DNA from: an uncultured Prevotellaceae bacterium | GTDB taxonomy: Bacteria; Bacteroidota; Bacteroidia; Bacteroidales; Bacteroidaceae | Reading direction: 5' to 3' | Assembly (NCBI GenBank): GCA_900320565.1 | Contig: ONSR01000021.1 | Coordinates: 1 to 51,295, forward strand | Length of the DNA: 51,295 nt | In this document: piece after piece, positions 2,629-51,295 of the stretch | Layout of the letters: every line of letters starts with the position of its first letter | Position numbering within the stretch: position 1 is the stretch's first letter | Notes under the pieces: model-generated | Databases searched by the model: none | What the model saw: the letters and a program-made list of their open reading frames with translations, nothing else | Told to the model about the DNA's origin: nothing | Program-made: the position numbers and the translations under genes

Positions 2629-3360
2629 ATGATGAAGAAAATAATGTTTCTAGGCTTCTGCATGATGTTGGCAGCATGCGGACAGAAAGCCACACAAGCG
2701 CCTGAAATTGAGTTCGTTGATGATGTTAAGGCTGCTCTCTCTGCAGACGGACAAATCAATCTCGACAACCTCGAATGGACACGAGAACCAGCAGGCTACG
2801 AAGTGAAAGGCGATACCATTTCAATCACAACAGCACCTCATACAGACCTTTGGCAACGCACCTATTATCACTTCCAGAACGACAATGCTCCCGTCCTGCA
2901 AATGAAGACGCGCGAGAAGTTCTTCAGCTTTGTCGTGAAGACCGACTTCACCCAAAGTCATCAGCGCTTCGACCAATGTGGTATCGTGATGTACCTCGAC
3001 AGCGAAAACTGGCTGAAAGGCTCTGTGGAATACGAGAACGAGGCGTTTCAGCATCTGGGCAGCGTCGCCACGAATAATGGCTATTCCGATTGGGCCACGA
3101 CAGCTATTCCTGCCGACGTGAAGACGATGTGGTACAGGTTCTCGAGGCGAGCCGACGACTACCTTATCGAATGCTCTACAGACGGAACAAACTTCAGCCA
3201 GATGCGCGTTTGCCACATGTATGCGGCAGCCGAGGAAATCCAGTTCGGCATCTATGCCTGCTCGCCAGAAGAATCATCCTTCACGGCACGCTTTACCGAC
3301 ATGAAGATAACAGAATGCGCTTGGAAGGCTCACGACGGACAACAACCTGACGAAGAATGA
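2629..3360 (+). CDS. DUF1349 lipoprotein (concanavalin-like fold)
   Basis: 243-residue predicted lipoprotein. The N-terminus has a short hydrophobic core ending in the lipobox LAAC (Cys16). The remainder resembles DUF1349, a concanavalin-like beta-sandwich: DLWQRTYYHF, a DQCGIVMYLDSENWLK segment and a C-terminal FGIYACSPEESSFTARF strand. Such modules often bind or act near carbohydrates. Two adjacent ATGs (2629 and 2632) are possible starts. Its stop overlaps the start of the GH59 gene by 4 bases (ATGA, 3357-3360), so translation is probably coupled. A joint role in glycan handling at the cell surface is an inference. Confidence 0.85.
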   Translation: MMKKIMFLGFCMMLAACGQKATQAPEIEFVDDVKAALSADGQINLDNLEWTREPAGYEVKGDTISITTAPHTDLWQRTYYHFQNDNAPVLQMKTREKFFSFVVKTDFTQSHQRFDQCGIVMYLDSENWLKGSVEYENEAFQHLGSVATNNGYSDWATTAIPADVKTMWYRFSRRADDYLIECSTDGTNFSQMRVCHMYAAAEEIQFGIYACSPEESSFTARFTDMKITECAWKAHDGQQPDEE

Positions 3361-5381
3361 AAATCCTGTATTCCTGCCTCCTGGCAACAATAAGCGTGCT
3401 GAACCTCTCGGCACAGACTGTTCGATTGAGCAACACTTCTCCGGGTAAACAATTCGACGGCATTGGTGTTGTTGATGGTGGTGGAGCAACTTCAGTCTTA
3501 CTGAAGGATTATCCAGAACCTCAGCGCAGCCAAATCATCGACATGGTTTACAAGCCCATGTTCGGAGCTTCTATCAGTGCTTTGCTCGTCGAGATTCCAG
3601 GCGATGGTAATTCCACTCAAGGCTCTATGCCTTCTCACAGCCATTCTCGAGGCGACGCAAACTTCGAGCGTGGCTACATTTGGTGGGTGATGAAAGCAGC
3701 CAAGAAATCCAATCCCCGTCTCTCGCTTGATGCCACCTCTTGGAGCGCTCCTGCTTGGGTGGGTAACTTCTGGAGCGAAGATATGGTCGATTATTATATC
3801 TCTTGGATGCAAGGATTGCGAGAGGTTCATGGATTGGAGTTGGATGCGCTAGGCTGTCACAACGAGAAAGGCTACAATTACGACTTTGCCAAGAACTTGC
3901 GTCGAGCCATGAACGAACGAGGCTTCGAGGATGTGAAGCTTCATGGCTTTGGTAATTGGGGCGACAGGAAGATGGACTTCCTGAAGGACATGCAGAAGGA
4001 TTCGGCTTTGGCTGCTTCTTTGGATGCCGTTTGTGCTCACACTTTCAGCGAGATTCCTCTCTCGAAAGAGCATCGTGCTATTTGCGAGGAACTGGGCAAA
4101 CCTATCTGGAATTCCGAGGACCATTTCTATTTGCCAGGCTTTGATGCGCTCATCAGTATCGTGAAAGGCTTCAACGAGAACTATATCGTCAGCGGTGCCA
4201 CAAAAGTCATCAACTGGTACGGCATAGCAGGCGTCTATCCTCTTGAACCATATTCCTATTATCCTGCGATGCTTCTTGCTCGAGAACCTTGGAGCGGAAA
4301 TTATGAAGTGCGCGAGGCACTATGGGGATATGCTCATTATGGGCAGTTCACACAGATTGGGTGGCGTTATGTTGACGATGGATGCAAGAAACTAAACGAA
4401 GGCGGTTCGATGGTTACCTTGCGCAATCCGGATTCGGGCGACTATAGTATTATTCTCGAAACGAAGGGCGCAAAGAGTGAGCAAGAGCTTAAGTTCAAGG
4501 TGGCAAAAGGTTTGAAGAAAGGCAACCTTTGCGTATGGTATAGTGATAAGAATCAGCAATTTGTCCGCCTTGAAGACATTAAACCGAAGGCAGGAACATT
4601 CAGCCTGAAACTTCATCCAGATGCTGTCTATTCCATTTCAACCCTTACAGGACAGCAGAAAGGTTCGTTTGCTGAAATTCCTGCGTCCAAGCCTTTCCCC
4701 CTTCCTTATTCCGACGATTTCGAGAGTTATTTGCCTCCATCAAGTTATGGCTATCTTCCTCATTATACGGCAGACCTGATTGGCTGTTTCGAACTTGCAG
4801 AAAGCCCAGACCATAAAGGCAAATGCATTCGCCAAACTGTTGGAGAACATACTCTTAGCTGGGCTCCAGAATGGCATCATTATACGATTCTGGGCGATTC
4901 GGCTTGGCGAGATTACGAAGTGAGTGCAGATGTCTGGCTGAATCCTGGAGACGAAGCTGCAGTGATGGGGCATCTTTGTGATGTAGGCTCTGGTTATGGA
5001 ATTTGGGCTAAAGGGTATTATCTGAAGCTCGATGATAAGGGCAACTGCACCCTTGTTCTGTCTTGTGGAAAACTCAACCAGAAAGAACTTATCGGAGATA
5101 AGGAACAGCAGGCTTTGATACGCGCTCGGAAAGATGTGGAAGTGGGAGGCGAATACACCCTTTCTTCAACAAAGGTAGAGGGCATCTCGGCTTGTAAGTG
5201 GCACAACTTGAAGTTGCGGTTCGAAGGAAAACAGTTGATAGGATATGTTGACAGCAAACCTGTTCTGTCGTTCACATCCCACCATTATCCGAAAGGTATG
5301 GCTGGTCTGATGGCTCCTTTGCATAAAGGTCGTGTCTGCACGCCATATTTCGATAACCTAAAGATTGACCGTGTAAATTAA
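3357..5381 (+). CDS. GH59 family glycosidase (galactocerebrosidase-like)
   Basis: 674-residue secreted enzyme of glycoside hydrolase family 59, whose known members are beta-galactosidases acting on galactosylceramide. After a signal peptide (about 1-19) the FDGIG and GGGATS motifs open the catalytic barrel. The acid/base Glu is probably E170 in HNEKGYN and the nucleophile E254 in NSEDHF, matching WNE and SSED in animal GALC. A beta-sandwich follows the barrel, and the C-terminal ~220 residues form a lectin-like (LamG-like) domain, as in GALC. The start overlaps the stop of the DUF1349 lipoprotein gene. The substrate in this organism is unknown; plant or host galactosides are plausible. No SusC/SusD pair or sulfatase is nearby. 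Confidence 0.9.
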   Translation: MKILYSCLLATISVLNLSAQTVRLSNTSPGKQFDGIGVVDGGGATSVLLKDYPEPQRSQIIDMVYKPMFGASISALLVEIPGDGNSTQGSMPSHSHSRGDANFERGYIWWVMKAAKKSNPRLSLDATSWSAPAWVGNFWSEDMVDYYISWMQGLREVHGLELDALGCHNEKGYNYDFAKNLRRAMNERGFEDVKLHGFGNWGDRKMDFLKDMQKDSALAASLDAVCAHTFSEIPLSKEHRAICEELGKPIWNSEDHFYLPGFDALISIVKGFNENYIVSGATKVINWYGIAGVYPLEPYSYYPAMLLAREPWSGNYEVREALWGYAHYGQFTQIGWRYVDDGCKKLNEGGSMVTLRNPDSGDYSIILETKGAKSEQELKFKVAKGLKKGNLCVWYSDKNQQFVRLEDIKPKAGTFSLKLHPDAVYSISTLTGQQKGSFAEIPASKPFPLPYSDDFESYLPPSSYGYLPHYTADLIGCFELAESPDHKGKCIRQTVGEHTLSWAPEWHHYTILGDSAWRDYEVSADVWLNPGDEAAVMGHLCDVGSGYGIWAKGYYLKLDDKGNCTLVLSCGKLNQKELIGDKEQQALIRARKDVEVGGEYTLSSTKVEGISACKWHNLKLRFEGKQLIGYVDSKPVLSFTSHHYPKGMAGLMAPLHKGRVCTPYFDNLKIDRVN

Positions 5382-20760: not shown

Positions 20761-23700
20761 ATGAGAAAGTTTACCTCTCTCGTCATCTTCGCCCTCATGT
20801 GGCTCGTTGGGACAGCTGCTTTCGCCGATGATCATGGATACGTGAACGGTATCTGTACGATGCACGACGCTTGCGACGCACACTTCGAGGCTCCTGAGAA
20901 GGATGCAGATGGCTTCTACATGCTCTACAATGCGGGCAATGTGGAGTGGATCTCGGACTTGGTTGCCAATGGCAATCTCGACCCTAACTGTAAGTTGATG
21001 AACGACATCGACTTTGAGAACATCGAGAACCTGCACCGTCCCATAGGTCCGGACGACGGCAAGAAGTACAACGGCACGTTCGACGGTCAGGGCTTCCGCA
21101 TCAAGAACATGATTATCAACCGTCCGAGTACAGAGCGTCAAGGCTTCTTCGGTGACCTTCGAGGCAACCCGAACAGTCGCGGCGAGGGTACGGTTATCAA
21201 GAACCTTATCATCGACAAGAGCTGCTCCATCACGGGTGCATTGCGTACAGGCGGCATCACGGGTACAGGTCAGAACCGCGACAAGGAGATTGTCATCATG
21301 AACTGTGTGAACGAAGCCAGTATTACTACTACAACCAAGAATGCTGGTGGCATTACTGGCGGCAGCACAAGCAATCATCCTATCTGGAGGATTGAGAACT
21401 GCGTCAACACAGGTACCATCACAGCTATGGGTAACGATAAAGGCGAGAAAGAGTCTGCCGGCATCTCAGGCTGGTTGGGCGACAACGGCTCTACCATTGT
21501 CAAGAACTGTATCAACATAGGCTATGTTGACGGCATCGACGGCAATGGTCGCGGCGTGGTCCGCATGAGCAGAGACTGCTGCGTGAACTGCTACGACCTC
21601 AGCGAGAACGAGATGAATTTCCAATATATCGACCATGAATTCGTGGCCGAAGACATCGTCAACGGCAAGCTTACTTACATCATCAACCAGCTGGCAGGCT
21701 CTATAGTCTATTGGCAGACACTTGGCACTGACGAATACCCCATGCCTTTCAGTACCAGCATGCAAGTCTATCTGCAAGGCGAAGTGATGTGTGATGGAAC
21801 TCCCATCGAAGGCGGAACCTATACGAACAATCCTGTTGAGCCTGTACGTCCGCCTCATGAATACAACGAAGGCACATGGTATTGCATCAATTGCGGCCAG
21901 ATTAACGACAGCTTCTGCGAGAAGGATGCCGACGGTTTCTATCAACTGAACAATGAGTTAGACGTATGCTGGTTTGCCGAGTTCGTCAAGGCAGGCAACG
22001 TTGAAGTAAACGCCAAGTTGAACAGCGACCTCGACTTCACAGACTATTCTATCGATTCAGAGGTTTGCTTCAGTGGTATCGGTGACCGCGACCACGGCTT
22101 CAAGGGTATCTTCGATGGCGGCTTCCATACCGTCAGCAACATGGATATGAGCTGGCGCGAAGGTGAGGAATGGGTTGGCTTCATCAACTTCCTCAACGGC
22201 GGCGCTACAGTCAAGAATCTTCGTGGCGATGCAACCTGCATCATCAGTGCCACGGGCAACGCAGGCTTCATCGGTGGCTCAACAGCTCCTGGTGACATCT
22301 TCCTGGAGAACATTGGCTTCGAGGGCGACGTAAACTGCTCAAGAGCAGGTGCTGGCGGCATCCTGGGCTGCAACACAGGTTCGCAGGCTCACATCTACAT
22401 GACGAATTGCTATTCAACAGGTTTCATCTCTGGTGCAAGTGTCAATGAGAACGGCGCCCTGAGTGCATGGCTCGGAAGTGGCGGCGCAGTTATCACCAAC
22501 TGCTGGTCGTCAGCAACGGTAAGCGGTGTGCAGAACGACGATAAGTATCTTGCTCGCTTCGACAACGCTACCTTCACCAATTGCTATAGCGTCAATGGTA
22601 CACCTCTTCAGTCAACAGTTATTGATGTAGAAGATGTATATAGTGGCGCTCTCTGCTACAAGCTCAACGGCGACCAGGAGAACATCCAGTGGTTCCAGGA
22701 CCTCGATGATCCTGAGTCAATACCATCATTCATGCCTGGTGGCAAGCAGGTATATGTTGTTGCAGAGATGCGTTGCGACGGTACATACGATCCTTCCGAG
22801 GCAAGCTATTCCAATACTCAAGGCTCTAGCATTCCCAGCCATCAGTATGTCGATGGCTTCTGTTCTGTCTGTCATCATCAAGACCCCGACTTCCCATTCC
22901 TGGATGTCTTCCCCAATGCTGACCACGATGTGAACACTGGCTACACAACACATAATGGCGGCGACGGCAGCAACCTTGCTTTTGAAAGCAGTGTTGTTGA
23001 GCACTGGAACTCTTCGTGGTTCGAGAGCTACCAGACCATCAAGAACCTTGAGCCTGGCATCTATCGCCTTCGTGTTCAAGGCTTGAGCCGCGTAGCTCAG
23101 TGGGGCAACGCAGAGCATAATGCATATGCAACAGGCGAACTTAGCGAAGATTATGCACCTCTCTATCACAGCAGCCAGTACTTCGCAGAAGTCAATGGCA
23201 AGAAGATTGCCAATCGATTCAAGGATATTACCGAAGACCGTCAGAAGGATCGTGTAGGTGAAACAGAGAACTACAGCGAAGAGACTGACGCTTGGGTGCC
23301 CAATTCTCGTACTGCCTGCATGAAGTACTTTGCTCGTGGCCTCTATTGGAACGAGCCTATCTACTTTGCAATTGAGAGTGCAGAGGATAGTGTAAATGTT
23401 GGTGTTGAGAACAGTCTTTACCTCTACGGTAACTGGACAGTATGGGACAGTTGGCGTTTGGATAAGTTGGAGGAAGGTGACATCAGCCTCATTCGTGAAC
23501 AGCAAATCGCTGCTATTCAGGAAGAACTTGAAGGACTTGAGCCTCAGGTTTCCCTGAAGGAAGCATATGAAGAAGCCTCAAGCGCCATTACAAATGCAAC
23601 GACTCTTGAGCAGATTATGGATATTGCAGATGTGTTGGCTCGCACTCCAAACCTTATTCGTAGGAGCCACCTTGCTTACGAGGCATTCCAATCTGCAATA

Positions 23701-25953
23701 GAAGCTATTACTGCCGAGCGTGCAGAGCGCACAGACCTCAATGGCGCAGCTACTGACTTGCTTGATAAGTATCTTAATCGCGTCGAGGATGAAAGTGATG
23801 AACTGCCTCATGGCACATTCCTCTATATTCTCAACGAGCGTCAGCTCAGCGAAGAAGAACTGACGGAGGAGATTGCTTTCGCAAAGACTCTGTATAATGA
23901 TGCTATTATGACGAGTATCAGTGTTGGCTCCGATGTAAGCAACATCATCAAGAACGCTGCCTTTACCGAAGATGGTAACTTCAAGGATTGGGAGACACAA
24001 ATCACATTCCAAGGCTCAGCAGGCAGCAACTTCAGCTCTAACACAGGTTTCACGGACATCTATCCCGTTGCTGGTACATGGAATACAGCTTTCAATGTAT
24101 CTCAGTATATTGTGGCCGACATTCCCGACGGCATCTACGAGCTGGAGGCTCCTGCCTTCTATCGTCCCGGCGGCAACGGCTTGGGCGACCTCGAGGGTAA
24201 TGACTACGTGCCCGCCGACCTCTTCATCAATGATTACTATACGCCTGTTATGAACATCTATGCAGGCCAAGTCCTCTATGAAGATGCCATCAACGGTGTG
24301 AACTGCCGTTACGATGCTTCCGGCGACCCCGAGGCTCCTCATAATGGCGAAGCAACAACGGCTCAGGACTTCGATACTGGCTCTGGTTATGTTCCAGAGC
24401 AGCGTCAAGCTGTCAGCTTTGCCTTTGGTGGCGGTCGCTATATAAATAATGTATATGGCGTCGTGACGAATGGCGAACTTCGTCTCGGAATCCGTAACAC
24501 CGGTAAGCCTTGGTATGAGAGCGGTATGACGATGTGGGGCAAGTTCAAACTAACCTATCGTGGTTACTCTGATGAGGTACTCGGAGCTATGATGCAGAAC
24601 TTCGAAAAGCATCTGGATGCCCTCAAATATGCTCGCGATGAGCAATGGAAAATGTTCTACAGCCAGAGCCACATTGATAACCTCGATGAATACATTGCAG
24701 AGGCTAATGCAGCCGTTTCTTCTGATGAAGCATCTATAGAGGATAAGTTGGCTGCCATTAAGAAGCTTAACGATGAATTCAATACCATCGAGGAAAGCTA
24801 TGATGCATATCAGGCACTTGTGGACTTGAGCGAATATTGTTATAATAAGGTTACAGAGCTACAAGAAACAGATCCAACTCTCAGCGATGCATACCAGTCT
24901 GTAGCAGATGAAATCAGTGATCATTATATGAGTGGTGATCTTACTGACGAAGAGGCACGCGAATATCGCGAGTCTATCCTGAATGATCCTGCTATTGGTG
25001 GCGGCTATTATGTTCAGGGCGACCTGATGGATTCCGAAGGCAATGAGCTTGTATATGGCCAGCATAGCACTGTTTATCCTATGGTAGCTCAGGATGACGG
25101 AACGTTCGTCGCTACCGGTGTAGTGGTGCAGAACCGTGCAAACTTGGCTAATGCCAATGCCCGTGCAGGTGTCTATATCAGTCGTTTGGAAGAAGTTTAC
25201 AAGGCTAACCAAGGCACACACCGTTTCGTGACACCAGCTGTTAAGAAGTTCTCTGTTGTTAAAGGCGCTGGCAATGATATCCAGATGATAGGCGGCACCT
25301 ACAACATAACCTATAATCCTGCTGACAGCAGCATCGTATTCGACCTTGTTGGTGAATATCCCTGGCACGATAACGTCTATGTCGTAGGTTCCATCCTTAA
25401 CGTCGATGGCCAGAAACACCGTTGGAAGAACGATGAGATGGCGCCTTTGGCTCATAAGGGCAATGGCATCTATTCTGGTATCGTTACTTTCTACAGAGAT
25501 GACCAAGAGAACATGTATCCCAACTTCACCATCTTCTCTTGCCGTTCAAATACGGCCTCTATCGAACACTCTACTGCTACCCGTGGCGGATGGAACGAAG
25601 GTCGTTATGGCAACGAAGAGAACAAGCTTATTCTCGAGGACGGCGTGACTATGGCTGACCTGATTCGCGGAGTGGACCGCAAGTGGTACATGAACTGGGA
25701 CGAGAGTGTAGAGGGTGATGCTCACGATTACCTTATTACTTTCGACATGAATCATGGTACTGTGCGTGTAGGCAGAATGAAGGGTGATGTCAACGATGAT
25801 AGCGAAGCAAATCTCGCAGACTATCAGACTATCTTGGGCCTCATGGCAAGAGATGCCGATGTGTCCGAGAATCCTGCTGCTGATGTCAATGGTGATGGCG
25901 AGATTAATCTTGCTGATGCTCAGACCATCTTGGGCATTATGGCTGCACAGTAA
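20761..25953 (+). CDS. Very large secreted GLUG-repeat protein with C-terminal dockerin
   Basis: 1730-residue exported protein, signal peptide about 1-22. Two related modules (about 45-270 and 380-620) each begin EKDADGFY and continue into GLUG-like repeats (FDGQGFRIKNM, GGITGG; FDGGFHTVSNM, GGILG), expected to form a beta-solenoid. Cysteine pairs recur between modules (GICTMHDAC, YCINCG, GFCSVCHHQ). A jelly-roll-like domain (about 720-860), a helical FIVAR-like stretch, a second beta domain (about 1070-1260), another helical stretch and an outer-membrane glycan-binding-like segment follow. The last ~57 residues are a dockerin: two calcium loops of the form DVNxDxE with LADYQTILGLMA and LADAQTILGIMA. 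It is probably a surface adhesin or glycan binder. No enzyme active site is seen. A strong hairpin follows the stop. Confidence 0.85.
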   Translation: MRKFTSLVIFALMWLVGTAAFADDHGYVNGICTMHDACDAHFEAPEKDADGFYMLYNAGNVEWISDLVANGNLDPNCKLMNDIDFENIENLHRPIGPDDGKKYNGTFDGQGFRIKNMIINRPSTERQGFFGDLRGNPNSRGEGTVIKNLIIDKSCSITGALRTGGITGTGQNRDKEIVIMNCVNEASITTTTKNAGGITGGSTSNHPIWRIENCVNTGTITAMGNDKGEKESAGISGWLGDNGSTIVKNCINIGYVDGIDGNGRGVVRMSRDCCVNCYDLSENEMNFQYIDHEFVAEDIVNGKLTYIINQLAGSIVYWQTLGTDEYPMPFSTSMQVYLQGEVMCDGTPIEGGTYTNNPVEPVRPPHEYNEGTWYCINCGQINDSFCEKDADGFYQLNNELDVCWFAEFVKAGNVEVNAKLNSDLDFTDYSIDSEVCFSGIGDRDHGFKGIFDGGFHTVSNMDMSWREGEEWVGFINFLNGGATVKNLRGDATCIISATGNAGFIGGSTAPGDIFLENIGFEGDVNCSRAGAGGILGCNTGSQAHIYMTNCYSTGFISGASVNENGALSAWLGSGGAVITNCWSSATVSGVQNDDKYLARFDNATFTNCYSVNGTPLQSTVIDVEDVYSGALCYKLNGDQENIQWFQDLDDPESIPSFMPGGKQVYVVAEMRCDGTYDPSEASYSNTQGSSIPSHQYVDGFCSVCHHQDPDFPFLDVFPNADHDVNTGYTTHNGGDGSNLAFESSVVEHWNSSWFESYQTIKNLEPGIYRLRVQGLSRVAQWGNAEHNAYATGELSEDYAPLYHSSQYFAEVNGKKIANRFKDITEDRQKDRVGETENYSEETDAWVPNSRTACMKYFARGLYWNEPIYFAIESAEDSVNVGVENSLYLYGNWTVWDSWRLDKLEEGDISLIREQQIAAIQEELEGLEPQVSLKEAYEEASSAITNATTLEQIMDIADVLARTPNLIRRSHLAYEAFQSAIEAITAERAERTDLNGAATDLLDKYLNRVEDESDELPHGTFLYILNERQLSEEELTEEIAFAKTLYNDAIMTSISVGSDVSNIIKNAAFTEDGNFKDWETQITFQGSAGSNFSSNTGFTDIYPVAGTWNTAFNVSQYIVADIPDGIYELEAPAFYRPGGNGLGDLEGNDYVPADLFINDYYTPVMNIYAGQVLYEDAINGVNCRYDASGDPEAPHNGEATTAQDFDTGSGYVPEQRQAVSFAFGGGRYINNVYGVVTNGELRLGIRNTGKPWYESGMTMWGKFKLTYRGYSDEVLGAMMQNFEKHLDALKYARDEQWKMFYSQSHIDNLDEYIAEANAAVSSDEASIEDKLAAIKKLNDEFNTIEESYDAYQALVDLSEYCYNKVTELQETDPTLSDAYQSVADEISDHYMSGDLTDEEAREYRESILNDPAIGGGYYVQGDLMDSEGNELVYGQHSTVYPMVAQDDGTFVATGVVVQNRANLANANARAGVYISRLEEVYKANQGTHRFVTPAVKKFSVVKGAGNDIQMIGGTYNITYNPADSSIVFDLVGEYPWHDNVYVVGSILNVDGQKHRWKNDEMAPLAHKGNGIYSGIVTFYRDDQENMYPNFTIFSCRSNTASIEHSTATRGGWNEGRYGNEENKLILEDGVTMADLIRGVDRKWYMNWDESVEGDAHDYLITFDMNHGTVRVGRMKGDVNDDSEANLADYQTILGLMARDADVSENPAADVNGDGEINLADAQTILGIMAAQ

Positions 25954-42634: not shown

Positions 42635-42793
42635 CCGCACATTATTATATATGCATATATTTGCGGTCGAAATATATAATTATTAAAAATAATACGCAAA
42701 CAACAAAACTGAAAACAAATACAATTGTACAACCTTCACATCATGTAGAAAGATGCTGAAAGGCAAATATTATCTAAGTGATTGAACGGACGA

Positions 42794-43414
42794 ATGAATA
42801 AAAGTATTAATATAAACTATAACAATGACATGAAAGCAAGAGTAATTAACGTTTCAAAGAAAACAAATCAAAAGTATACCAAGAAAATAGTATGCAAAAA
42901 GAGTGTGACGATTCTTGTAAGTGTCCTTCCTGGGAATCTTCGAATCGGGGATACATTTAAGTCGGTCAGCGAAATGGCAAAAACTTTTGGTGCAAAAGTT
43001 CTGCCGCGACACGGCTTCGGATACATTGGCAAGACAGCATCGAATGCGGATGTTGCCGTATGGACTGTCAATATGGGTAAAAATCCTTACTGGAAGAACA
43101 AACTTCTTGACCACGGGAACACCCTTACTGAAAGGAAAATAAAGGGAGAGTCAAGAGCTGAGTTCCTGAATCGCGTCCGCAAAGACCTTGATTACGACGC
43201 CGATCAGCTTCGCCTGACATTTGCCAAAGACCAGAAAGGATTGCATTTCATTGGCGTTTTCCGACTGTCAGGTTTCGATGTTGACAACCAAACGACCACC
43301 TACAAGAGAGTGATTAACAAGCTCCTTCCTGTTTATTACAAGAGAATGACAAAGACTCAAACGATAACCATCGAAGAGAGCGTAGAGGCCACAGAAGGCA
43401 TGGTATTAGTCTAA
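42794..43414 (+). CDS. Uncharacterised protein upstream of the cohesin/dockerin cluster
   Basis: About 206 residues, basic, not recognised. No signal peptide or membrane segment. The first ~35 residues are Lys/Asn-rich. A conserved-looking middle (LRIGDTFKSVSEMAKTFG, HGFGYIGKTASNADVAVW) precedes a beta-rich segment (LRLTFAKDQKGLHFIGVFRLSGF, TTTYKRV). The latter resembles the small beta domains that close several nuclease-associated proteins, but the similarity is too weak for a call. Starts at ATG 42794, ATG 42830 or TTG 42782 are all possible; none has a clear ribosome site. The subtilase starts 27 bp downstream, so they may share a transcript. Confidence 0.6.
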   Translation: MNKSININYNNDMKARVINVSKKTNQKYTKKIVCKKSVTILVSVLPGNLRIGDTFKSVSEMAKTFGAKVLPRHGFGYIGKTASNADVAVWTVNMGKNPYWKNKLLDHGNTLTERKIKGESRAEFLNRVRKDLDYDADQLRLTFAKDQKGLHFIGVFRLSGFDVDNQTTTYKRVINKLLPVYYKRMTKTQTITIEESVEATEGMVLV

Positions 43415-43441
43415 ATATTAAACAAAAAAACATAAATAATA

Positions 43442-46400
43442 ATGAAACACAATTTCTCTATCTTGGGCCTTTTGCTGTTGCTGGGAGCAATGGCGATGCC
43501 GGCATTCTCGCAAGTTTCGAACGACAACGAGGATGAAGTGAACAAAGTGGACCAGCGCCTTGGGCAAGACTTTGTGCCTGGACAAGTTCTGGTCAAGATG
43601 AAAGACAGCTCGCCTGCTAATGTGCGACGCGTAAAAGGCAAATTCAAAAGCGCTGGCATCAGCCAGCTCGATGCTGTGCTTCAGGAGTTTGGCGTGGAGG
43701 GAATGGAGCAATTGCTTCCACATGAGAAGCCTGGACGCACGTTGCGTAAGGCTAAAGCATTCAATGGCAACATCATTCAGGAACGCGACCTGTCGCAACT
43801 CTACCTCTTGCAGATGAAGGAGGAGAAGCAGATGGAGACACAGCAACTCGTCGAACGCCTTGCCGAATTGCCCGAGGTGGAGTTTGCCGAGCCCAACTAC
43901 AAGGCATACATCATGGCAGATGTCGATGACTATGCTGCCGAGCCTCTCTACAACCAACAATGGGGACTTCCAGCCATCAATCTGCCTCAACTTTGGGGCG
44001 CAGAGAAGATTTCGCAGAAGCGTCCTGTCATTGCCATTCTGGACACAGGTATCGACATTTCTCATCCCGACCTCGCTGCAAACATCTGGACCAACACGGC
44101 TGAGGCTGAGGGCGAAGAAGGTTACGACAACGATAACAACGGCTTCAAGAATGATGTTCATGGCTGGGACTTTATCAACCAGACAGGCAACATTCGCGAC
44201 TTCAACGGTCACGGCACCCATTGTGCAGGCATTGCAGCTGCTGTTGGCAACAACGGTGTGGGCATCACGGGTGCCAACCCCGATGCCCTCATCATGCCCA
44301 TCACCATCATGCAGAGCGATGGCACGGGCGACCTTGCCACCATCATCCGTGGCATTGACTATGCCATAGCTATGGGAGCTGACGTTCTGAGCATGAGTAT
44401 TGGTACCTATGCCACTTCTGCTGCATTCGAGCAGGCATTGGGAAGAGCTTACCAGAATGCCATCCTCGTGGCTGCTGCTGGCAATGATGGCCGTTGCTTG
44501 ACTCATCGTCATCCAGGACGACCAGCACCCTTGCCTATGTTCCCCGCCGCTTACAACTTTGTCTTGGGCGTGCAGGCATCAACATCATCCGGAGCAATGG
44601 CAAGTTTCTCTAACTTTGACGACGATGGGGCTTTCTTCTCAGCATACGATGAAGATAAACTCTACAACTATGAGTTGCGTGCTCCAGGTGCAGGCATCCT
44701 CAGCACCTGGCCAGGCGGCAATTACAAACAGCTAAACGGCACATCAATGGCCTGTCCGTTGGCGGCTGGTGCATTGTCACGATTGATTCAATGCAAGGAA
44801 ATTGACAGCAAAGAAGAACTGTTCGGAGACCTCATTCACTCCACAATGCCAACTGGCGACCTTGACATCTATGCAGCCTACCAGATGAGTGATGCTAATC
44901 GTCAACCTACGCTTTCTTTTGTCACTTATACTATTGATGACAGCGAAGGAGATGGCGACGGATTGATAGATGCAGGAGAAATCATAGCTATCTATCCTAC
45001 ACTGCGCAACGATTGGGGTATTGCATCCAATATCCAAATAAGTGTAGAACTGGACGCACTGGAAGACCCAAATATCGTAGAATTTTTGGATGCTGATGTT
45101 GCTTTTGGTAATACATTAAGTGGATATGCCAAGAACACTGCAAGCACACCTCTCCGAATTAAAATTAGCGAGACATGCGCAGACAACCGTCATATTAAAC
45201 TCCTACTCAAAGCAATATGGGACAATAACACCTCAGGCATGCAACAGTCCATTGTCATTGTCGCAAATAATATGGTTAAGATAGGAGGTATGATAAGTGA
45301 AAATACCACTTTGACTGCCGACCATGTTTATTATGTAGATAATGACTTAGCCATTATGGAAGGTGCAACACTTACTATCGAACCTGGTACACGTTTGGAA
45401 TTTGCTGCTAACAAATCTCTTTCCTCATTTGGAAAACTTGTAGCAAAAGGAACACCCAAAAATCCGATTGTGTTTGCTAAACATATAGGACAAAACGGAT
45501 GGGGATTTATAAAAAGTCACAAACCGACAGGGGTATTAAAAAGCGGTACGGGTATATATACCAATAATGATATGACTCTATTTACTTTTTTAAGAACAGA
45601 TGATACGCCTAAAGCTTATAATTATAATTATGTTGTTAGTGCATATTATAATCCGTCCGAAGAAGAGAATCCGGGCAAGACATTTTGGTTAAGAGACTAT
45701 ATGAGTGGATTTAGGGATGAAAATAATACATATAGTCTAAACATACCTTCCCAGAGTTTAGAAAATCCTAATTTTTTGACCCCATTTGTTCAGAACGCAT
45801 TGGAAGATCTCAACAACTACATCAGCCAATGGCCTTCAGAACGAGATGATTTACATACTCAAGTATTTAACTGTGTATTGCGGACAGATTTTGGTTGGAC
45901 TAGTTATGCCTATCCGCGTGATAGCATTTCATATTGCAAGATAGAAGGATGCGGTAACTTTTCTGATCCGCCTTTTATGTATGATTGTATATTGGAGCCC
46001 AATCCTGGCGTAAATATTAATCTTGAAGAATTAGCGGGAGAACGTAATGTTATACAAAATGTTGTTTGGAATGGAGGAAGTAATGGAGCTGGCTCGAATA
46101 ATGCCACACAAGGACTAAAATTTACTAATATAATTAATAATGACTGGAGTGGTCGTATCGGTGATTTGCCAGACTACAGTATGATGTATAATAATAACTA
46201 TTTTAATAGTAAAACAACATGGGGGAAAACACCGTTTATGTTAAGGACAATGAATAAAGTTCCTTCTGTTTCCCATGCAGAGCACCCTTCTTATTTAGGC
46301 ACGGCACGTGAAGATTTAGTGCGTCCGTATTTATATGAGTTTGGCAACATAGGCAATGAGAGCTATATCACCTATGCAACTATTGATTTAAGTAACATGC

Positions 46401-47791
46401 CTTCTGAACCTATCCATGAGGCCCACGGCATCGTTTGGAAAGTAGTCGTCAACGGCTATGATGCACAGGATGAGTTTGAGCAACTGCCACCACTCGGTGT
46501 AGGACGCCATAAGTTCGAGGTCTATTTCAATCGTCCGATGAACAAGGAAGTGGCTCCGCAGATTTCCTTTGGCGTACGAGAGCCTTACACACAAAACGCT
46601 GTTGCTGAAGATGGCAGTTGGAACGAGGAAGGAACCATCTACACCGCATACAAGACTATCACTGGCAAAACCAAGAGTGACGGTTTGAACCGTATCTACG
46701 TCTATGGCGCTGAGGATGATGAGTTCTTCGAGATACCCTACGAGAATACCCGCTTCAACATCAACATTCAGGCTGCAGGCTCCATGGCTACAGGCTTTAT
46801 GGCAGAAGCAGGACTAGGTCGTGTGAACCTGACCTGGAACAATGACGAGAACAACTTCGACGACGCCATGGGATTCAATGTCTATCGCTACAATTATGTG
46901 GAGAAAGACTCGCTCGACCGTTATGGACGTCCGACTGGAGTGAAGATTATCGTTCCAGACACTATCCGTATTAATCAGGATATTGTCGATGTTGAGGCCA
47001 CTTCGTTCATTGACTATGATGTGAAGCCAGGCGAGACCTACTACTATTATTATAAGGTACTCTCTACGGACCTCCAGGAGTACGACATTTCGAACGTAGT
47101 GGCAGCTACACCACAGACAGGCGAATTGGGCGATGCCAACGGTTCTGGCGATGTGGATGTGGCAGACGTCATCACAACCGTCAACTACGCTGCAGGCCAG
47201 CAACCCAAGCCCTTCATCTTTGAGGCTGCCGACATGAACACAGACCTCAGCATCGACATCCTCGACGTCATCGGTATCATCAAGAAGATCATGAACCCAA
47301 GTGCCGGCACACAGGCATTTGAAGAAGCCACTGCAACCTATACCATCGAGAATGGTACGCTCTATGTGGAGAGTCCCGTCGCTCTGGCTGGCGTGCAAGT
47401 ACAGCTGGCATTAGATGGAAGAGGGAATAAGGAAGATGTCAGAGTAGCAGAAGACCTTAACGGATTTGAGCACACATCTGCCTGGCTCAGCGACAACGAC
47501 TACCTTTTCCTCGCTTACAACATGAACGGAAAGACGCTGCCCGCAGGCAAGCACGCTCTGCTCCACATTGGCAATGGCCTGATTGCCCAGATGCGTCTGG
47601 CCGACAATGCCGGTCACAATGTAGAGGCTATTGGCGACGATGCGACCAGGATAAACCGCATGGCAGGCGATGTGATGACCGTTCCCGGCATCTACGATTT
47701 GCAAGGTCGTAAGATTACAGGCAACAGCCAGTGGCAGGGCCAGTTGCCAAAGGGTGTGTACATCATCAATGGCAAAAAGGTGGTACGATGA
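43442..47791 (+). CDS. Secreted subtilisin-like protease (S8) with dockerin and sorting-type tail
   Basis: 1449-residue exported serine protease. Signal peptide about 1-23, propeptide about 25-160, S8 domain about 165-480 with D201 (ILDTGID), H257 (GHGTH), N348 (AAGNDG) and S435 (NGTSMACP). An accessory beta domain (DGDGLIDAGE, about 500) and a beta-helix-like segment (LTIEPGTRLEFA) follow, then ~350 residues not recognised, an FN3-like domain (VNLTWNN...FNVYRYN), a dockerin (about 1228-1285: GDANGSGDVDVAD, AADMNTDLSIDILD) and a C-terminal tail (IYDLQGRK...GVYIINGKKVVR) of the sort seen on Prevotella type-IX-like substrates. The DNA of the middle (about 45060-46400) is much more AT-rich than the ends, so part of the protein may have been exchanged. 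Confidence 0.9.
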   Translation: MKHNFSILGLLLLLGAMAMPAFSQVSNDNEDEVNKVDQRLGQDFVPGQVLVKMKDSSPANVRRVKGKFKSAGISQLDAVLQEFGVEGMEQLLPHEKPGRTLRKAKAFNGNIIQERDLSQLYLLQMKEEKQMETQQLVERLAELPEVEFAEPNYKAYIMADVDDYAAEPLYNQQWGLPAINLPQLWGAEKISQKRPVIAILDTGIDISHPDLAANIWTNTAEAEGEEGYDNDNNGFKNDVHGWDFINQTGNIRDFNGHGTHCAGIAAAVGNNGVGITGANPDALIMPITIMQSDGTGDLATIIRGIDYAIAMGADVLSMSIGTYATSAAFEQALGRAYQNAILVAAAGNDGRCLTHRHPGRPAPLPMFPAAYNFVLGVQASTSSGAMASFSNFDDDGAFFSAYDEDKLYNYELRAPGAGILSTWPGGNYKQLNGTSMACPLAAGALSRLIQCKEIDSKEELFGDLIHSTMPTGDLDIYAAYQMSDANRQPTLSFVTYTIDDSEGDGDGLIDAGEIIAIYPTLRNDWGIASNIQISVELDALEDPNIVEFLDADVAFGNTLSGYAKNTASTPLRIKISETCADNRHIKLLLKAIWDNNTSGMQQSIVIVANNMVKIGGMISENTTLTADHVYYVDNDLAIMEGATLTIEPGTRLEFAANKSLSSFGKLVAKGTPKNPIVFAKHIGQNGWGFIKSHKPTGVLKSGTGIYTNNDMTLFTFLRTDDTPKAYNYNYVVSAYYNPSEEENPGKTFWLRDYMSGFRDENNTYSLNIPSQSLENPNFLTPFVQNALEDLNNYISQWPSERDDLHTQVFNCVLRTDFGWTSYAYPRDSISYCKIEGCGNFSDPPFMYDCILEPNPGVNINLEELAGERNVIQNVVWNGGSNGAGSNNATQGLKFTNIINNDWSGRIGDLPDYSMMYNNNYFNSKTTWGKTPFMLRTMNKVPSVSHAEHPSYLGTAREDLVRPYLYEFGNIGNESYITYATIDLSNMPSEPIHEAHGIVWKVVVNGYDAQDEFEQLPPLGVGRHKFEVYFNRPMNKEVAPQISFGVREPYTQNAVAEDGSWNEEGTIYTAYKTITGKTKSDGLNRIYVYGAEDDEFFEIPYENTRFNINIQAAGSMATGFMAEAGLGRVNLTWNNDENNFDDAMGFNVYRYNYVEKDSLDRYGRPTGVKIIVPDTIRINQDIVDVEATSFIDYDVKPGETYYYYYKVLSTDLQEYDISNVVAATPQTGELGDANGSGDVDVADVITTVNYAAGQQPKPFIFEAADMNTDLSIDILDVIGIIKKIMNPSAGTQAFEEATATYTIENGTLYVESPVALAGVQVQLALDGRGNKEDVRVAEDLNGFEHTSAWLSDNDYLFLAYNMNGKTLPAGKHALLHIGNGLIAQMRLADNAGHNVEAIGDDATRINRMAGDVMTVPGIYDLQGRKITGNSQWQGQLPKGVYIINGKKVVR

Positions 47792-47793
47792 GA

Positions 47794-47828
47794 GTTCGTA
47801 GTTCATAGTTCATAGTTTATAGTTCATA
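47794..47828. repeat. Heptamer repeat GTTCATA x5
   Basis: GTTCGTA, GTTCATA, GTTCATA, GTTTATA, GTTCATA in the 46-bp gap between the protease stop and the next start. Same heptamer as at 16456-16483. Confidence 0.9.
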
Positions 47829-47837
47829 GACGAAGAA

Positions 47838-49907
47838 ATGAAAAATGAAATGCTTTCCATATTGTCAGTCCTGCTTCTGTGCTTTGGCATGGGAGCACGG
47901 GCTGGCAATATCGTGACAATAGGCACGGCAAGCGGGGCGTCTGGCGACGAAGTGACTGTCAGTGTCAGCCTTGCCAATACAGATGCCGTATCGTCGTTGC
48001 AGCTGAGCATCACCATGAATGAGCAGTTGTCGTTTGTCGATGGCTCGGCAGTGCTCGGCAGTCGATGCACAGACCATAGTGTAACGGCTGGTGTGAAGGA
48101 CGGTGCTCTGAACATCATGGTCTATTCGATGGGCCTTGCTGCCATCAGTGGCAATGAAGGCGAAGTGATGTCGTTCCGTCTGAAGCTGGGCAACCAGCCA
48201 ACGACGGTTGCACTCACTGCCTCGAAACTCATCCTGACCGATACTGATGGCAACACTGTCTCTGGAAGCACACAAAACGGAAGCGTTAGCATTCGCTGTG
48301 CCAAGGCGCAGTACAGTTCGATGACTGTTGACTTTGGCAGTGTTCCCATTCGCAGCACATACACACGAAACGTGACTGTAACGAATGTAGGAAACGAGCC
48401 TCTGGAGGTCACAGGTCTGCAGTTCAGTAAGTATCCGACGGACTTCTCTTCGACAACATCGTTCCCCTTTACCGTCAATGCAGGCAGCAGCGCCAGCATC
48501 AACATCACGTACGCTCCGCAGGAACGTGGTACAATTAATGAGACGGTGAAAGTGGTGTGCAACAGCATCTCCAAACTGAACAACATCTCCCTGAAGGCTC
48601 AGCCCTTTGCTGTGAATGAACTGCATGTGCAACCCACATCGGGCATTGCAGACGAGGTGGTAACGGTTAGCATGACGATGAACAACATGGATGCCATCAG
48701 TGGCTTCCAGTTTGAATTCACATTACCAGCGGCATTGACTTACATAGAGAACAGCTTCCAGTTGTCCGACCGCAAGCAAGGGCATTCTGTCGTGCAGACG
48801 CTGAAAGATGGAGTCTTACGCATCATAGGCTATTCATCGAGCGACACACCCTTCACAGGAAATGATGGTGAATTGGCAGCCATGCAGTTCCGCCTGAGCG
48901 GTCGCAACAGCGTGACTCTGAAGGCCAGCAAGGTAATCCTAACTGCAACCATCAACGGCCAGACGGAAAATGTGTGCTCGGCCGATTATGGTGCAACCGT
49001 CACCATCAGAAGCCCACGCCTCAGTGCAAACAGCACACTGAACATGGGGGCTACGCCCGTTACGCAGGATGCGGCAAGCAGCTTCGTAGTCCGCAACTAT
49101 GGCAATGCCCCATTGACCATCAACCGAGTAACGTTCAACAAAGAGGAATTATACGTCAAGCAGGAATTGCCACTGACCATTGCTGCCAATGGGAATGTTA
49201 CGCTCAACGTCGTCAATCCAGGCATAGAAGAAGGCGACTTCAGTGCCCTTATGCAAATCTACTCGAACGACCCGGAGCAACGGCTATGGAACGTCAATAT
49301 CACTGGCAATCGCTTTGCGCCGAACTATCTGTCGTTCACTGCTCCTGACATCTACACAGACGAAGACCTGGCAGTGAATGTCTCCATGAGTAACTACGAT
49401 GCAATCAATGGCCTGCAGTTCGACGTGGAATATCCCTCAACTTACTATGAGCCTACAGACGAACTTGTCACCACAGCCCGCTCTGCAGGACTGAGCGTAT
49501 CGCAACGCAGCATAAGTGCCAATACTGTCCGCTATTTCTTCTACTCGCTCTCCGATGCAGAGATTTCTGCAGGCGATGGAAACGTACTGACATTCAAACT
49601 ACAGGCAAAAGGCGATACGCCAGCAGGAAGCTATACACTCCGCATCACTAATGTCAAGTTGGGAACAGCTGACATGGTGAACAAGTATGCAGGAACAAAC
49701 ATCACGAGCAGTTTCAGTGTGAACAACTACGCCCTTGGAGATGTTAATCGAGATGGCAATGTTGACAGTGGAGACGTGATGGCCATCTATTCATCAATGG
49801 CCGGAAATAGCAATCCTGAGACACAGTCAAGATCAGACGTAAACAGTGATGGCCAGGTGGATAGCGGTGACATCATGGCCATATACAGCATCATGGCAGG
49901 TAACTAA
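47838..49907 (+). CDS. Triple cohesin-like protein with C-terminal dockerin (adaptor scaffoldin candidate)
   Basis: 689-residue exported protein, signal peptide about 1-22. Three cohesin-like modules (about 25-153, 258-391, 492-630) share N-x-DA(I/V)xx(L/F)Q and a later GNxGE or AGDGN...F(R/K)L motif. Between them lie two ASH/immunoglobulin-like domains (about 156-255 and 393-490: MTVDFGSVPI, STLNMGATPV). The last ~57 residues (633-688) are a dockerin with two calcium loops DVNRDGNVDSGD and DVNSDGQVDSGD, each followed by a MAIYSxMAGN helix. The layout is that of an adaptor scaffoldin: it can receive dockerins and itself dock onto a cohesin. No enzyme domain. Partners could be the protease upstream and the single-cohesin protein downstream (24-42 bp away). 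Confidence 0.85.
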   Translation: MKNEMLSILSVLLLCFGMGARAGNIVTIGTASGASGDEVTVSVSLANTDAVSSLQLSITMNEQLSFVDGSAVLGSRCTDHSVTAGVKDGALNIMVYSMGLAAISGNEGEVMSFRLKLGNQPTTVALTASKLILTDTDGNTVSGSTQNGSVSIRCAKAQYSSMTVDFGSVPIRSTYTRNVTVTNVGNEPLEVTGLQFSKYPTDFSSTTSFPFTVNAGSSASINITYAPQERGTINETVKVVCNSISKLNNISLKAQPFAVNELHVQPTSGIADEVVTVSMTMNNMDAISGFQFEFTLPAALTYIENSFQLSDRKQGHSVVQTLKDGVLRIIGYSSSDTPFTGNDGELAAMQFRLSGRNSVTLKASKVILTATINGQTENVCSADYGATVTIRSPRLSANSTLNMGATPVTQDAASSFVVRNYGNAPLTINRVTFNKEELYVKQELPLTIAANGNVTLNVVNPGIEEGDFSALMQIYSNDPEQRLWNVNITGNRFAPNYLSFTAPDIYTDEDLAVNVSMSNYDAINGLQFDVEYPSTYYEPTDELVTTARSAGLSVSQRSISANTVRYFFYSLSDAEISAGDGNVLTFKLQAKGDTPAGSYTLRITNVKLGTADMVNKYAGTNITSSFSVNNYALGDVNRDGNVDSGDVMAIYSSMAGNSNPETQSRSDVNSDGQVDSGDIMAIYSIMAGN

Positions 49908-49949
49908 CTGACATAAAACAATTAATCGCATTTGAAACTATTAATAAAT

Positions 49950-51152
49950 ATGAAAGAAAAGATTCTATTACTATCATTCTCTTTCTTGTTTGCATGGAAC
50001 ATTGGACTACATGCAGACAACATCATTTCAGTGAACGAGGTGAGCATCAGGCCAGGAAGCACAGCAGAACTGATAGTCAGTCTGGAAAATGATGCCGACT
50101 TCAAGGTATATGCATACGACTTCCGTCTGTATCTGCCCGACGGAATAGAGGTTGACACAAAAGCCAACGGCTCATACAATTTCACGCTTAAGGAACGTAA
50201 TGAAGACCATTCCACTAATGTGCAGATGACTTCGGACGGTGCCATACAGTTTGGTGTCAATAGTCCGACACTCTATCTGACTGGTAACTCTGGGCCTGTC
50301 TTGGGCATTATACTGAAAGCATCTGCAGGGCTGGCGGAAGGTACCTATCAGGCATCCATCGAACGCATCACATATGCCAACAAGGAAGCACAGACCGTTC
50401 ATCCTGTTAACATCACATTTGATATCGAAGTGAGAAACTTGGTTGTCCTCGACGAGAACTCTACTATTATGCCTGAAGCCACCAATGGAACAGTGGATGT
50501 CAATGTACTGCGAACAATCAGGGGCGGAAATTGGCAAACCATCGTTCTGCCTTTTGCCATGACTGAAGAACAAGTAACAGATGTGTTTGGCGATGATGTA
50601 GAGCTCGCAGACTTCGCAGGCTATGAGACTCAAGAAAACGAAGACGAAGAGATCGTTGGCATAAAAGTTAACTTCAACACTATCACATCCATAGAAGCAA
50701 ACCATCCTTGCATTATTAAAGTCAGTCAAGACATCTCGTCCTTCTCGGTTGAAGATGTAACAATCGAAGAACCAGAAGTAGAGCCAACAGTGGCTGCTGT
50801 CAAAAGAAACAGAAGACAATGGAGCGAACTGATTGGAACTTATGTGGCACAGACAGAGGTCCCAGAGAACACTTTGTTCCTAAACAGCAACAAATTCTAT
50901 TACTCAGATGGCACTATTAAGATGAAAGGCTATCGTGCTTATTTCGATTTCTATGATCTACTAACAGAAATAGAAGAAGGCGCGGGTGTGAAGATGTTCT
51001 TCAATATTGATGACGAGGAAACCGGCATTAAAGGAATAGACCAGAGGCAACGGACAAAGGATGATATCTATGACCTCAGTGGCCGCAAGATTGCTCAAAA
51101 ACAACAAAAAGGCATCTATATTGTCAATGGAAAGAAAGTAGTCATCAAATAA
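49950..51152 (+). CDS. Single cohesin-like protein with sorting-type C-terminal tail (anchor candidate)
   Basis: 400-residue exported protein. Signal peptide about 1-22 (start ATG 49950; a TTG at 49932 would add six residues before it). Residues ~24-163 form a cohesin-like module: VNEVSIRPGSTAELIVSLEN, YAYDFRLYLPDGIEV and GNSGPVLGIILKA. The central domain (about 188-340: GNWQTIVLPFAMTEEQV, YRAYFDF) is common near the C-terminus of Prevotella surface proteins. The tail IYDLSGRKIAQ...KGIYIVNGKKVVIK resembles that of the upstream protease and of type-IX secreted proteins. It could hold dockerin partners at the cell surface (inference). The next gene starts 10 bp downstream. Confidence 0.8.
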   Translation: MKEKILLLSFSFLFAWNIGLHADNIISVNEVSIRPGSTAELIVSLENDADFKVYAYDFRLYLPDGIEVDTKANGSYNFTLKERNEDHSTNVQMTSDGAIQFGVNSPTLYLTGNSGPVLGIILKASAGLAEGTYQASIERITYANKEAQTVHPVNITFDIEVRNLVVLDENSTIMPEATNGTVDVNVLRTIRGGNWQTIVLPFAMTEEQVTDVFGDDVELADFAGYETQENEDEEIVGIKVNFNTITSIEANHPCIIKVSQDISSFSVEDVTIEEPEVEPTVAAVKRNRRQWSELIGTYVAQTEVPENTLFLNSNKFYYSDGTIKMKGYRAYFDFYDLLTEIEEGAGVKMFFNIDDEETGIKGIDQRQRTKDDIYDLSGRKIAQKQQKGIYIVNGKKVVIK

Positions 51153-51162
51153 GGATACAACT

Positions 51163-51295
51163 ATGAGAAAGACATATATTATACCCTCAATAATGATTGT
51201 GCGCATGCAGACCGTCCATATGATGGCCGGCAGTGTATCATCAGACAAAGGCATAGATTATGGCGGGAAAGTGGGTGAAGACGATAACATAACCC
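51163..51295 (+). CDS. Start of a small Bacteroidales peptide gene (truncated by window end)
   Basis: ATG at 51163, preceded by AAGGATACAACT. At least 44 codons are visible: MRKTYIIPSIMIVRMQTVHMM then AGSVSSDKG. The pattern M(K/R)KTYxxPxxxVxxxxxxxM(L/M)A is familiar from a very common, uncharacterised family of 60-90-residue Prevotella and Bacteroides proteins. The 3' end lies outside the window. It sits 10 bp after the cohesin/anchor gene, so it is probably in the same transcript. Confidence 0.6.
   Translation, partial: MRKTYIIPSIMIVRMQTVHMMAGSVSSDKGIDYGGKVGEDDNIT

Follow-up and report, generated by a model that had tools for sequence, protein, structure and literature searches.

Do neighbouring genes that carry the two halves of a cohesin–dockerin clip encode proteins that hold one another at the cell surface? 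The question is raised by three consecutive genes at positions 43442–51152 of a 51,295-nucleotide stretch of DNA (hereafter, the window) from an uncultured Prevotellaceae bacterium, which is the entire contig C65 of a 2.63 Mb metagenome-assembled genome (MAG; 89.3% complete). They encode a subtilase with a dockerin (gene 1), an adaptor with three cohesins and a dockerin (gene 2), and an anchor with one cohesin and a C-terminal tail of the type IX secretion system (T9SS) kind (gene 3). Comparison with relatives indicates that the three products probably form a surface chain with two joints, in which gene 1 would dock on gene 2 and gene 2 on gene 3.

Domains were called by a Pfam scan of the window proteins using curated cut-offs, and signal peptides by a simple hydrophobicity rule rather than SignalP. 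Gene 1 (43442..47791, + strand), assigned from the open reading frame (ORF) list, Pfam, motifs, a tail pattern and an AlphaFold model, encodes an exported S8 subtilase of 1449 amino acids (aa). It contains a prodomain, a catalytic domain (residues 193–468; Peptidase_S8, 1.8e-49), an internal dockerin (1228–1282; 47123..47287, +; Dockerin_1, 24.1 bits against a cut-off of 22.9, also judged by identity to relatives), a short, divergent cohesin-fold domain (about 1295–1400; 47324..47641, +) and, by pattern, a T9SS-type tail from residue 1417 (47690..47788, +). The subtilase motifs around D, H, S and N are complete (starting at 198, 256, 432 and 344, respectively), and we take D, H and S to be catalytic and N to be the oxyanion residue. 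The cohesin-fold domain was missed by the sequence profiles applied here; AlphaFold modelled it as a beta-sandwich, with predicted local distance difference test (pLDDT) scores of 62–88 in 10-residue blocks. At E ≤ 0.001 there are seven fold matches in the PDB, every one a cohesin chain, at low template modelling (TM) scores (0.26–0.32, query length), and profile–profile comparison with cohesins gave a weak match (12.5% probability, E 0.0023). Mean pLDDT of the C-terminal model of gene 1 is 58.5, and its dockerin part is poor (under 50).

Gene 2 (47838..49907, +; 689 aa; assigned by Pfam, layout and a signal-peptide-like start) reads Coh1 - ASH - Coh2 - ASH - Coh3 - dockerin behind that start, where Coh stands for cohesin. 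Pfam reports three cohesin stretches (64.2 bits, cut-off 24.1), two immunoglobulin-like (Ig) domains of the ASH/HYDIN type and a terminal Dockerin_1 (49731..49892, +; 42.5 bits), the halves of which are nearly identical (SGDVMAIYSSMAG / SGDIMAIYSIMAG). The dockerins of genes 1 and 2 both have two calcium-loop repeats, with Dockerin_1 over the cut-off and the loop residues read by eye. Gene 2 has no T9SS tail, and its chain stops 4 residues past the dockerin. Gene 3 (49950..51152, +; assigned by Pfam, a profile match and the tail pattern) encodes 400 aa from ATG 49950, a start that fits better than the TTG 49932 of the ORF list. A signal-peptide-like start is followed by a cohesin (50010..50438, +), a domain of ~200 aa (GNWQTIVLPF) and a T9SS-type tail. 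The cohesin scored 22.5 bits in the protein scan, just below the cut-off, and 25.6 bits in the genome scan, over it; as a profile, gene 3 and its relatives matched solved cohesins (5n5p, 9.1e-6). Many same-genus matches of gene 3 cover only the ~200-residue domain and the tail (about residues 160–406), so that domain and tail also exist without this cohesin.

The tails of genes 1 and 3 were assigned by pattern, and the Pfam and NCBIfam tail models reported neither. The tail of the gene 3 family matches the C-termini of 4kca and 7jvi, and more distant proteins gave Por_Secre_tail matches under the curated cut-off. The two T9SS genes searched for are encoded in the genome (SprA, 2660.6 bits; sortase, 986.3 bits). 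Surface display, which an earlier note on this DNA had proposed, is thus supported in a T9SS form by tails and secretion genes, from which we infer a surface location. The same note had listed a subtilase with a dockerin, a three-cohesin protein with a dockerin and a one-cohesin protein with a sorting-type tail, in this order, on one strand and with short gaps. The matches given above bear out each of these, as do the three same-strand ORFs and intergenic gaps of 46 bp (genes 1–2) and 42 bp (genes 2–3); one terminator-like site was found in 43200–51295, on the opposite strand. What did not survive is the picture of a subtilase held only through the adaptor, given that gene 1 has a T9SS-type tail and a cohesin-fold domain of its own.

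Evidence for the joint between the gene 2 dockerin and its proposed partner, the gene 3 cohesin, comes from relatives. Those with names are MAGs under the labels Bacteroidaceae, Prevotellaceae, Prevotella, Bacteroides or Bacteroidales, and the titles of many point to ruminants. In 80 loci collected from named genomes with similarity to the gene 3 family as the sole criterion, 78 proteins were taken as anchors (300–520 aa long, with an N-terminal cohesin and the gene 3 domain). For 70 of the 78, the gene immediately upstream is on the same strand and encodes a tail-less protein with a terminal dockerin, at gaps all <250 bp, and 51 of these 70 upstream genes show the tandem cohesin-dockerin arrangement of gene 2. 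When pooled with loci collected before, 84/99 distinct anchors follow a terminal-dockerin gene; the rate of other dockerin genes within the loci is about 2%.

Among 125 distinct dockerin proteins in loci picked around gene 2 or gene 3 homologues, a sample that is not random, the dockerin is terminal (within 40 residues of the end) in 102, none of which has a tail (0/102). A tail is present in 18/23 internal-dockerin proteins by script, and in 21/23 when three found by eye are included. As a rule, therefore, a dockerin has a tail behind it, be it on its own chain or in the next gene. Natural fusions of genes 2 and 3 in one frame (L152, 1125 aa; L158, 1275 aa) read Coh-Doc-Coh-domain-tail, where Doc stands for dockerin. 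The dockerin–cohesin part of a fusion was modelled at a mean pLDDT of 92, with cohesins as its best PDB fold matches; Clostridium perfringens cohesins (2jh2, 2w1n and 2vo8) are among the fold matches from the gene 1 domain and fusion model searches. As a separate observation on L105–L184 and related loci, a recurrent C-terminal P[QEMN] ends 38/84 terminal-dockerin proteins upstream of anchors (e.g., L107, L115, L121, L166 and L180), and 35/46 of those with at least 12 residues past the dockerin.

Six gene 2 orthologues (L105, L106, L134, L053, L153 and L160) have cohesins that are 46–92% and Ig domains that are 53–89% identical to those of the window. In L105, the closest named relative (a yak-cecum MAG; 85% gene 3 identity), the gene 2 dockerin is 86%, the gene 3 cohesin 90% and the other gene 3 domain 84% identical to the window. 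The corresponding values are 69%, 78% and 46% in L106, 41%, 23% and 52% in L153 (gene 2 body, 65–76%), and 31%, 31% and 52% in L160 (gene 2 body, 46–60%). On these alignments, the anchor cohesin and the gene 2 dockerin switch jointly, and the other gene 3 domain does not follow. Both are lost in L134, where gene 2 continues into the gene 3 domain and tail. The gene 2 of genome G055 (L053) has no adjoining anchor, and its dockerin, 36% identical to that of the window, nearly equals those of two loci in the same genome (L077 and L083) that both have anchors. In G019 (62% complete), where no gene 2 was found, the subtilase itself ends in a gene 2-like dockerin, and the gene directly behind it encodes a short protein with a cohesin and a tail. 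Across 59 non-redundant pairs, dockerin distances correlate with anchor cohesin distances at r = 0.55 (partial 0.40, 0/1000 permutations) and with those of the other gene 3 domain at r = 0.06; the values for 81 pairs are 0.47 and 0.01, respectively.

For the joint between gene 1 and gene 2, we compared 93 distinct, complete genes for terminal-dockerin proteins whose upstream neighbour could be read, and defined an extra N-terminal cohesin as a separate cohesin that does not adjoin the dockerin. Such a cohesin is present in 16/18 genes behind an internal-dockerin gene, compared to 0/70 without an upstream dockerin gene and 0/5 behind a terminal-dockerin gene. In these 16 cases, 163–195 residues follow the dockerin of the upstream protein. 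The gene 1 dockerin retains 83–90% identity in six orthologues irrespective of whether gene 2 has preserved, altered or lost its own, in line with a separate joint. In another family (L055), a gene 1 homologue has a dockerin that is 58% identical to that of gene 1 on a different body (Omp28 and Cleaved_Adhesin matches under cut-offs), and it adjoins a three-cohesin gene 2 with its own tail. The order of enzyme, adaptor and anchor that the earlier note had proposed thus gains comparative evidence at both joints (70/78 and the joint switching; 16/18 versus 0/70).

According to this two-joint model, the internal dockerin of gene 1 would bind one or more cohesins of gene 2, the terminal dockerin of gene 2 would bind the gene 3 cohesin, and the T9SS tail of gene 3 would provide export and fixation outside the cell. 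Because gene 2 has a signal peptide and no T9SS tail, its display would depend on docking to tailed partners, the anchors of which it would borrow. Binding itself, its calcium dependence, the surface location and the choice of the gene 2 cohesin that takes gene 1 are points that we infer from sequence.

Several observations weigh against this model. All data are draft MAGs with gene starts from a simple ORF caller. Eight of the 78 anchors have no upstream dockerin gene (L118, L122, L130, L138, L142, L163, L174 and L182). The gene 2 dockerin correlates equally with the adjacent gene 2 cohesin (0.57, 59 pairs), and co-inheritance could raise the dockerin-cohesin correlation because the two are DNA neighbours. 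A control within the anchor cohesin was not significant: docking-face strands gave 0.391 and opposite-face strands 0.326 (faces that we presume from the cohesin literature), with 11.8% of resamples at or below zero and the front set at rank 88 of 300 random sets. The single-chain fusion model has good domains, but its predicted TM score of 0.68 does not establish a dockerin seated on the cohesin. At the joint between genes 1 and 2, the two exceptions are L099, whose gene 2 is truncated where the contig stops, and L133, in which the dockerin lies near the start of the upstream protein. By eye, the 16 positive cases amount to about six orthologue groups, and the nominal Fisher value of 6e-13 (with all 7 negatives) therefore overstates their independence. 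Finally, in another family (G083), a subtilase whose dockerin precedes a domain like that of gene 1 and a tail occurs where our cohesin profile A5 finds nothing, and the gene 1 dockerin may thus also act within its own chain.

The cargo differs among relatives. In the 15 homologues of gene 1 or gene 2 elsewhere that were scanned, a small part of a larger pool, Pfam reports LRR_5 (BspA-type leucine-rich repeats, LRR) in 10 and Big_2 in 3, with one carrying both; a peptidase domain over the cut-off occurs in 0/15, the single M26_N match being far below it. Given these LRR_5 and Big_2 homologues, the protease appears to be one among the cargoes of a general kit, and the notion of a system built around a protease does not hold. 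The relatives suggest that such a kit, with matched halves on neighbouring genes, would serve to display other proteins.

Is the kit closed, or does it also receive proteins encoded elsewhere in the genome? The Pfam cohesin model finds three places in the whole 2.63 Mb MAG, all inside the window. We dropped these three as the full set of the genome, since a profile of the family's own cohesins finds nine, five of them outside the window. Twelve dockerins of the genome are over the cut-off. Six of them form one class, including that of an exported 1730 aa protein with a terminal dockerin (20761..25953, +; Pfam dockerin, 25.3 bits), which is 61–88% identical to the five others and unlike the dockerins of genes 1 and 2; a search for this class in 100 relatives, too stringent to be informative, gave matches in its own genome only. 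A second gene pair, found by profile search on G000 contig C23 (L015:3676-5178), encodes a 229 aa cohesin-dockerin protein, the dockerin of which belongs to this class, and, behind it, a protein of 253 aa that bears a tail and matches cohesins in part. The same kind of search identified an orphan 208 aa protein with a cohesin and a T9SS-type tail on G000 contig C69 (L198:4365-4991), next to genes resembling (by eye) those of ribosomal proteins L20 and L35, and with relatives (54–71% identical) in nine other genomes of the genus. Because of its different dockerin class and these other cohesin-tail proteins, the 1730 aa protein is probably not the further client that it had been taken for, and the C23 and C69 proteins are, on sequence, better candidate partners for its dockerin.

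The C69 orphan could be an anchor that dispersed dockerin proteins share. In 37 same-genus genomes, at least six dockerins are found in 8/8 that have an orphan of the C69 type, compared to 10/29 that do not, on which basis dispersed dockerin pools probably exist. In the first set of loci, four anchors with a readable upstream neighbour have no dockerin gene there (L070, L091, L097 and L098, in genomes G024, G045, G015 and G016); dockerin counts made for three of the four genomes came to 25, 29 and 19, and such high counts would suit an anchor that serves a dispersed pool. Taken together with the two-joint chain, these observations lead to a broader proposal, which we advance tentatively and consider somewhat doubtful as a whole. 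A tail-less exported protein would join one or two T9SS-tailed partners by cohesin-dockerin binding, probably in the periplasm, and the complex would be exported and anchored as one (hitch-hiking). Each locus would have its own matched joint pair, and in some genomes a single orphan cohesin-tail anchor would hold a large number of dispersed dockerin proteins, the Gram-negative equivalent of a scaffold anchored by sortase.

Other explanations share parts of this evidence. The gene 1 dockerin might pair within its own chain with the following cohesin-fold domain, making gene 1 a self-contained T9SS cargo and leaving only genes 2 and 3 docked. The consecutive row of dockerin, cohesin-fold domain and tail in gene 1, the same kind of row in G083, and the Coh-Doc-Coh-tail rows of L101, L102 and L099 are all compatible with this, but it leaves the match between extra cohesins and upstream internal dockerins unexplained; with the gene 1 dockerin model too poor to judge intrachain pairing, we regard this arrangement as possible although unlikely. 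Gene 2 might instead be exported free of partners, by another route or with its terminal dockerin acting as a T9SS signal, and gene 3 would then be only a receptor. Tail-less terminal dockerins are numerous (102/125), and the P[QEMN] end upstream of anchors could be a signal of its own. Partner-free export is nevertheless distinctly unlikely in our view, because chains whose dockerin is non-terminal, as in the fusions, or lost, as in L134, carry a tail themselves.

A classical scaffoldin, in which the three-cohesin gene 2 gathers many dispersed dockerin proteins, the 1730 aa protein included, on the surface, would make use of the 12 dockerins of the genome and the three cohesins of gene 2, and would agree with the higher dockerin counts of orphan-bearing genomes. 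Against it stand the separate class of six of these dockerins, the other cohesin-tail proteins at C23 and C69, and the scan for glycoside hydrolase (GH) domains, which found none on gene 1, the 1730 aa protein or nine dockerin proteins outside the window (a fragment on C39 and a weak dockerin match on C29 were left out, and the MAG is 89% complete); Pectate_lyase_5 appeared once, weak and below the cut-off. This makes a scaffoldin of that kind quite improbable. Highly improbable, finally, is that the modules are co-inherited as cassettes without any binding, with dockerin and cohesin as relics or spacers. The physical adjacency of the gene 2 end and the gene 3 start and the non-significant docking-face control would allow it, but the swaps in L153 and L160, the joint loss in L134 together with its fusion to the anchor domain, and the lack of tails on all 102 terminal dockerins argue otherwise, as does the G055 gene 2, whose dockerin matches those of anchor-bearing loci in other parts of the genome, beyond the reach of any neighbourhood effect. 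The two-joint chain accordingly stays the preferred reading of the locus.

Some further features were recorded. Directly upstream of gene 1, a small protein (window 42782–43414) has an SRA (SET and RING associated) domain match over the cut-off, and window 3357–5381 encodes a glycosyl hydrolase family 59 (galactocerebrosidase-type) protein. At L013:3304-6870 (G000 contig C113), a CotH protein carries in succession a dockerin, a cohesin-like domain, Big_2 and a T9SS-type tail. The start of G000 contig C39 (L014:2-361) encodes a Pro/Thr-rich stretch and a dockerin in a style unlike the others of the genome, possibly a misassembled or foreign contig end. L056 (G063:C25:205000-224900) belongs to a genome from another family of the order in which 37 dockerins were counted; frames of 2467 and 1239 aa there match the window cohesin protein many times, and this may be a true multi-cohesin scaffoldin system.

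With respect to its meaning, cohesin-dockerin pairing here looks like a general-purpose clip that splits the work of display between a gene for the business end and a following gene for the T9SS anchor. If this is true, dozens of locus-specific cohesin-dockerin pairs would exist, T9SS would have a route for displaying proteins without tails, and whether it can carry a docked passenger could be tested in a simple way.

How does this compare with known systems? The cellulosomes and amylosomes of Clostridia and Ruminococcus combine cohesin-dockerin scaffoldins, adaptors with both modules and a separate surface anchor. The window shares with them cohesins, dockerins, an adaptor with both and a separate anchor protein, and gene 2, with three cohesins, has the several cohesins of a scaffoldin. 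Unlike cellulosomes, it has no GH domain on the scanned dockerin proteins, anchoring by T9SS-type tails, partners encoded adjacently, and cargo that is a protease in the window and mostly LRR proteins elsewhere. The system works like a scaffoldin-adaptor-anchor system, yet we rejected a cellulosome on account of the missing GH domains and of gene 2, for which Pfam reported no carbohydrate-binding module (CBM) family at E up to 10. Clostridium perfringens has non-cellulosomal cohesin/dockerin pairs on secreted proteins, which, as in the window, place these modules outside cellulosomes; we know of no T9SS anchor gene for them.

Rumen metagenome cohesins and dockerins, Bacteroidetes bins included, are read as signs of cellulosomes in PMC6071333, and PMC5831590 reports none in one rumen Bacteroidetes genome and calls this consistent with other Bacteroidetes genomes. 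Among the matches listed in open-licence PMC titles and abstract starts, none concerns cohesin-dockerin gene pairs with T9SS tails in Bacteroidota, nor did this literature yield genes arranged in such pairs, a rule for tails, a triad with two joints or the switching. Cohesin-dockerin complexes as such are already proposed, as are, according to PMC8542988, dockerin peptidases and a scaffoldin whose C-terminal domain is referenced to a T9SS review, both in Candidatus Stygibacter (Cloacimonadota). There, dockerins occur on an S8/S53 peptidase and a C25 peptidase, and the scaffoldin, of 3,755 aa, has CBMs. The S8-type peptidase with a dockerin is a likeness to the window; the single CBM scaffoldin and the phylum differ, and the excerpts describe no gene pair, adaptor or matched switching. 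The Planctosome of freshwater Planctomycetes (Andrei et al. 2019, as cited in PMC8542988), a cellulosome-like structure reported for polypeptide degradation, resembles the window in its polypeptide theme and differs in phylum. Also related is the T9SS type A cargo (Por_Secre_tail) of Bacteroidota: genes 1 and 3 end alike by pattern, and gene 2, which has no such tail, is proposed to borrow one by docking.

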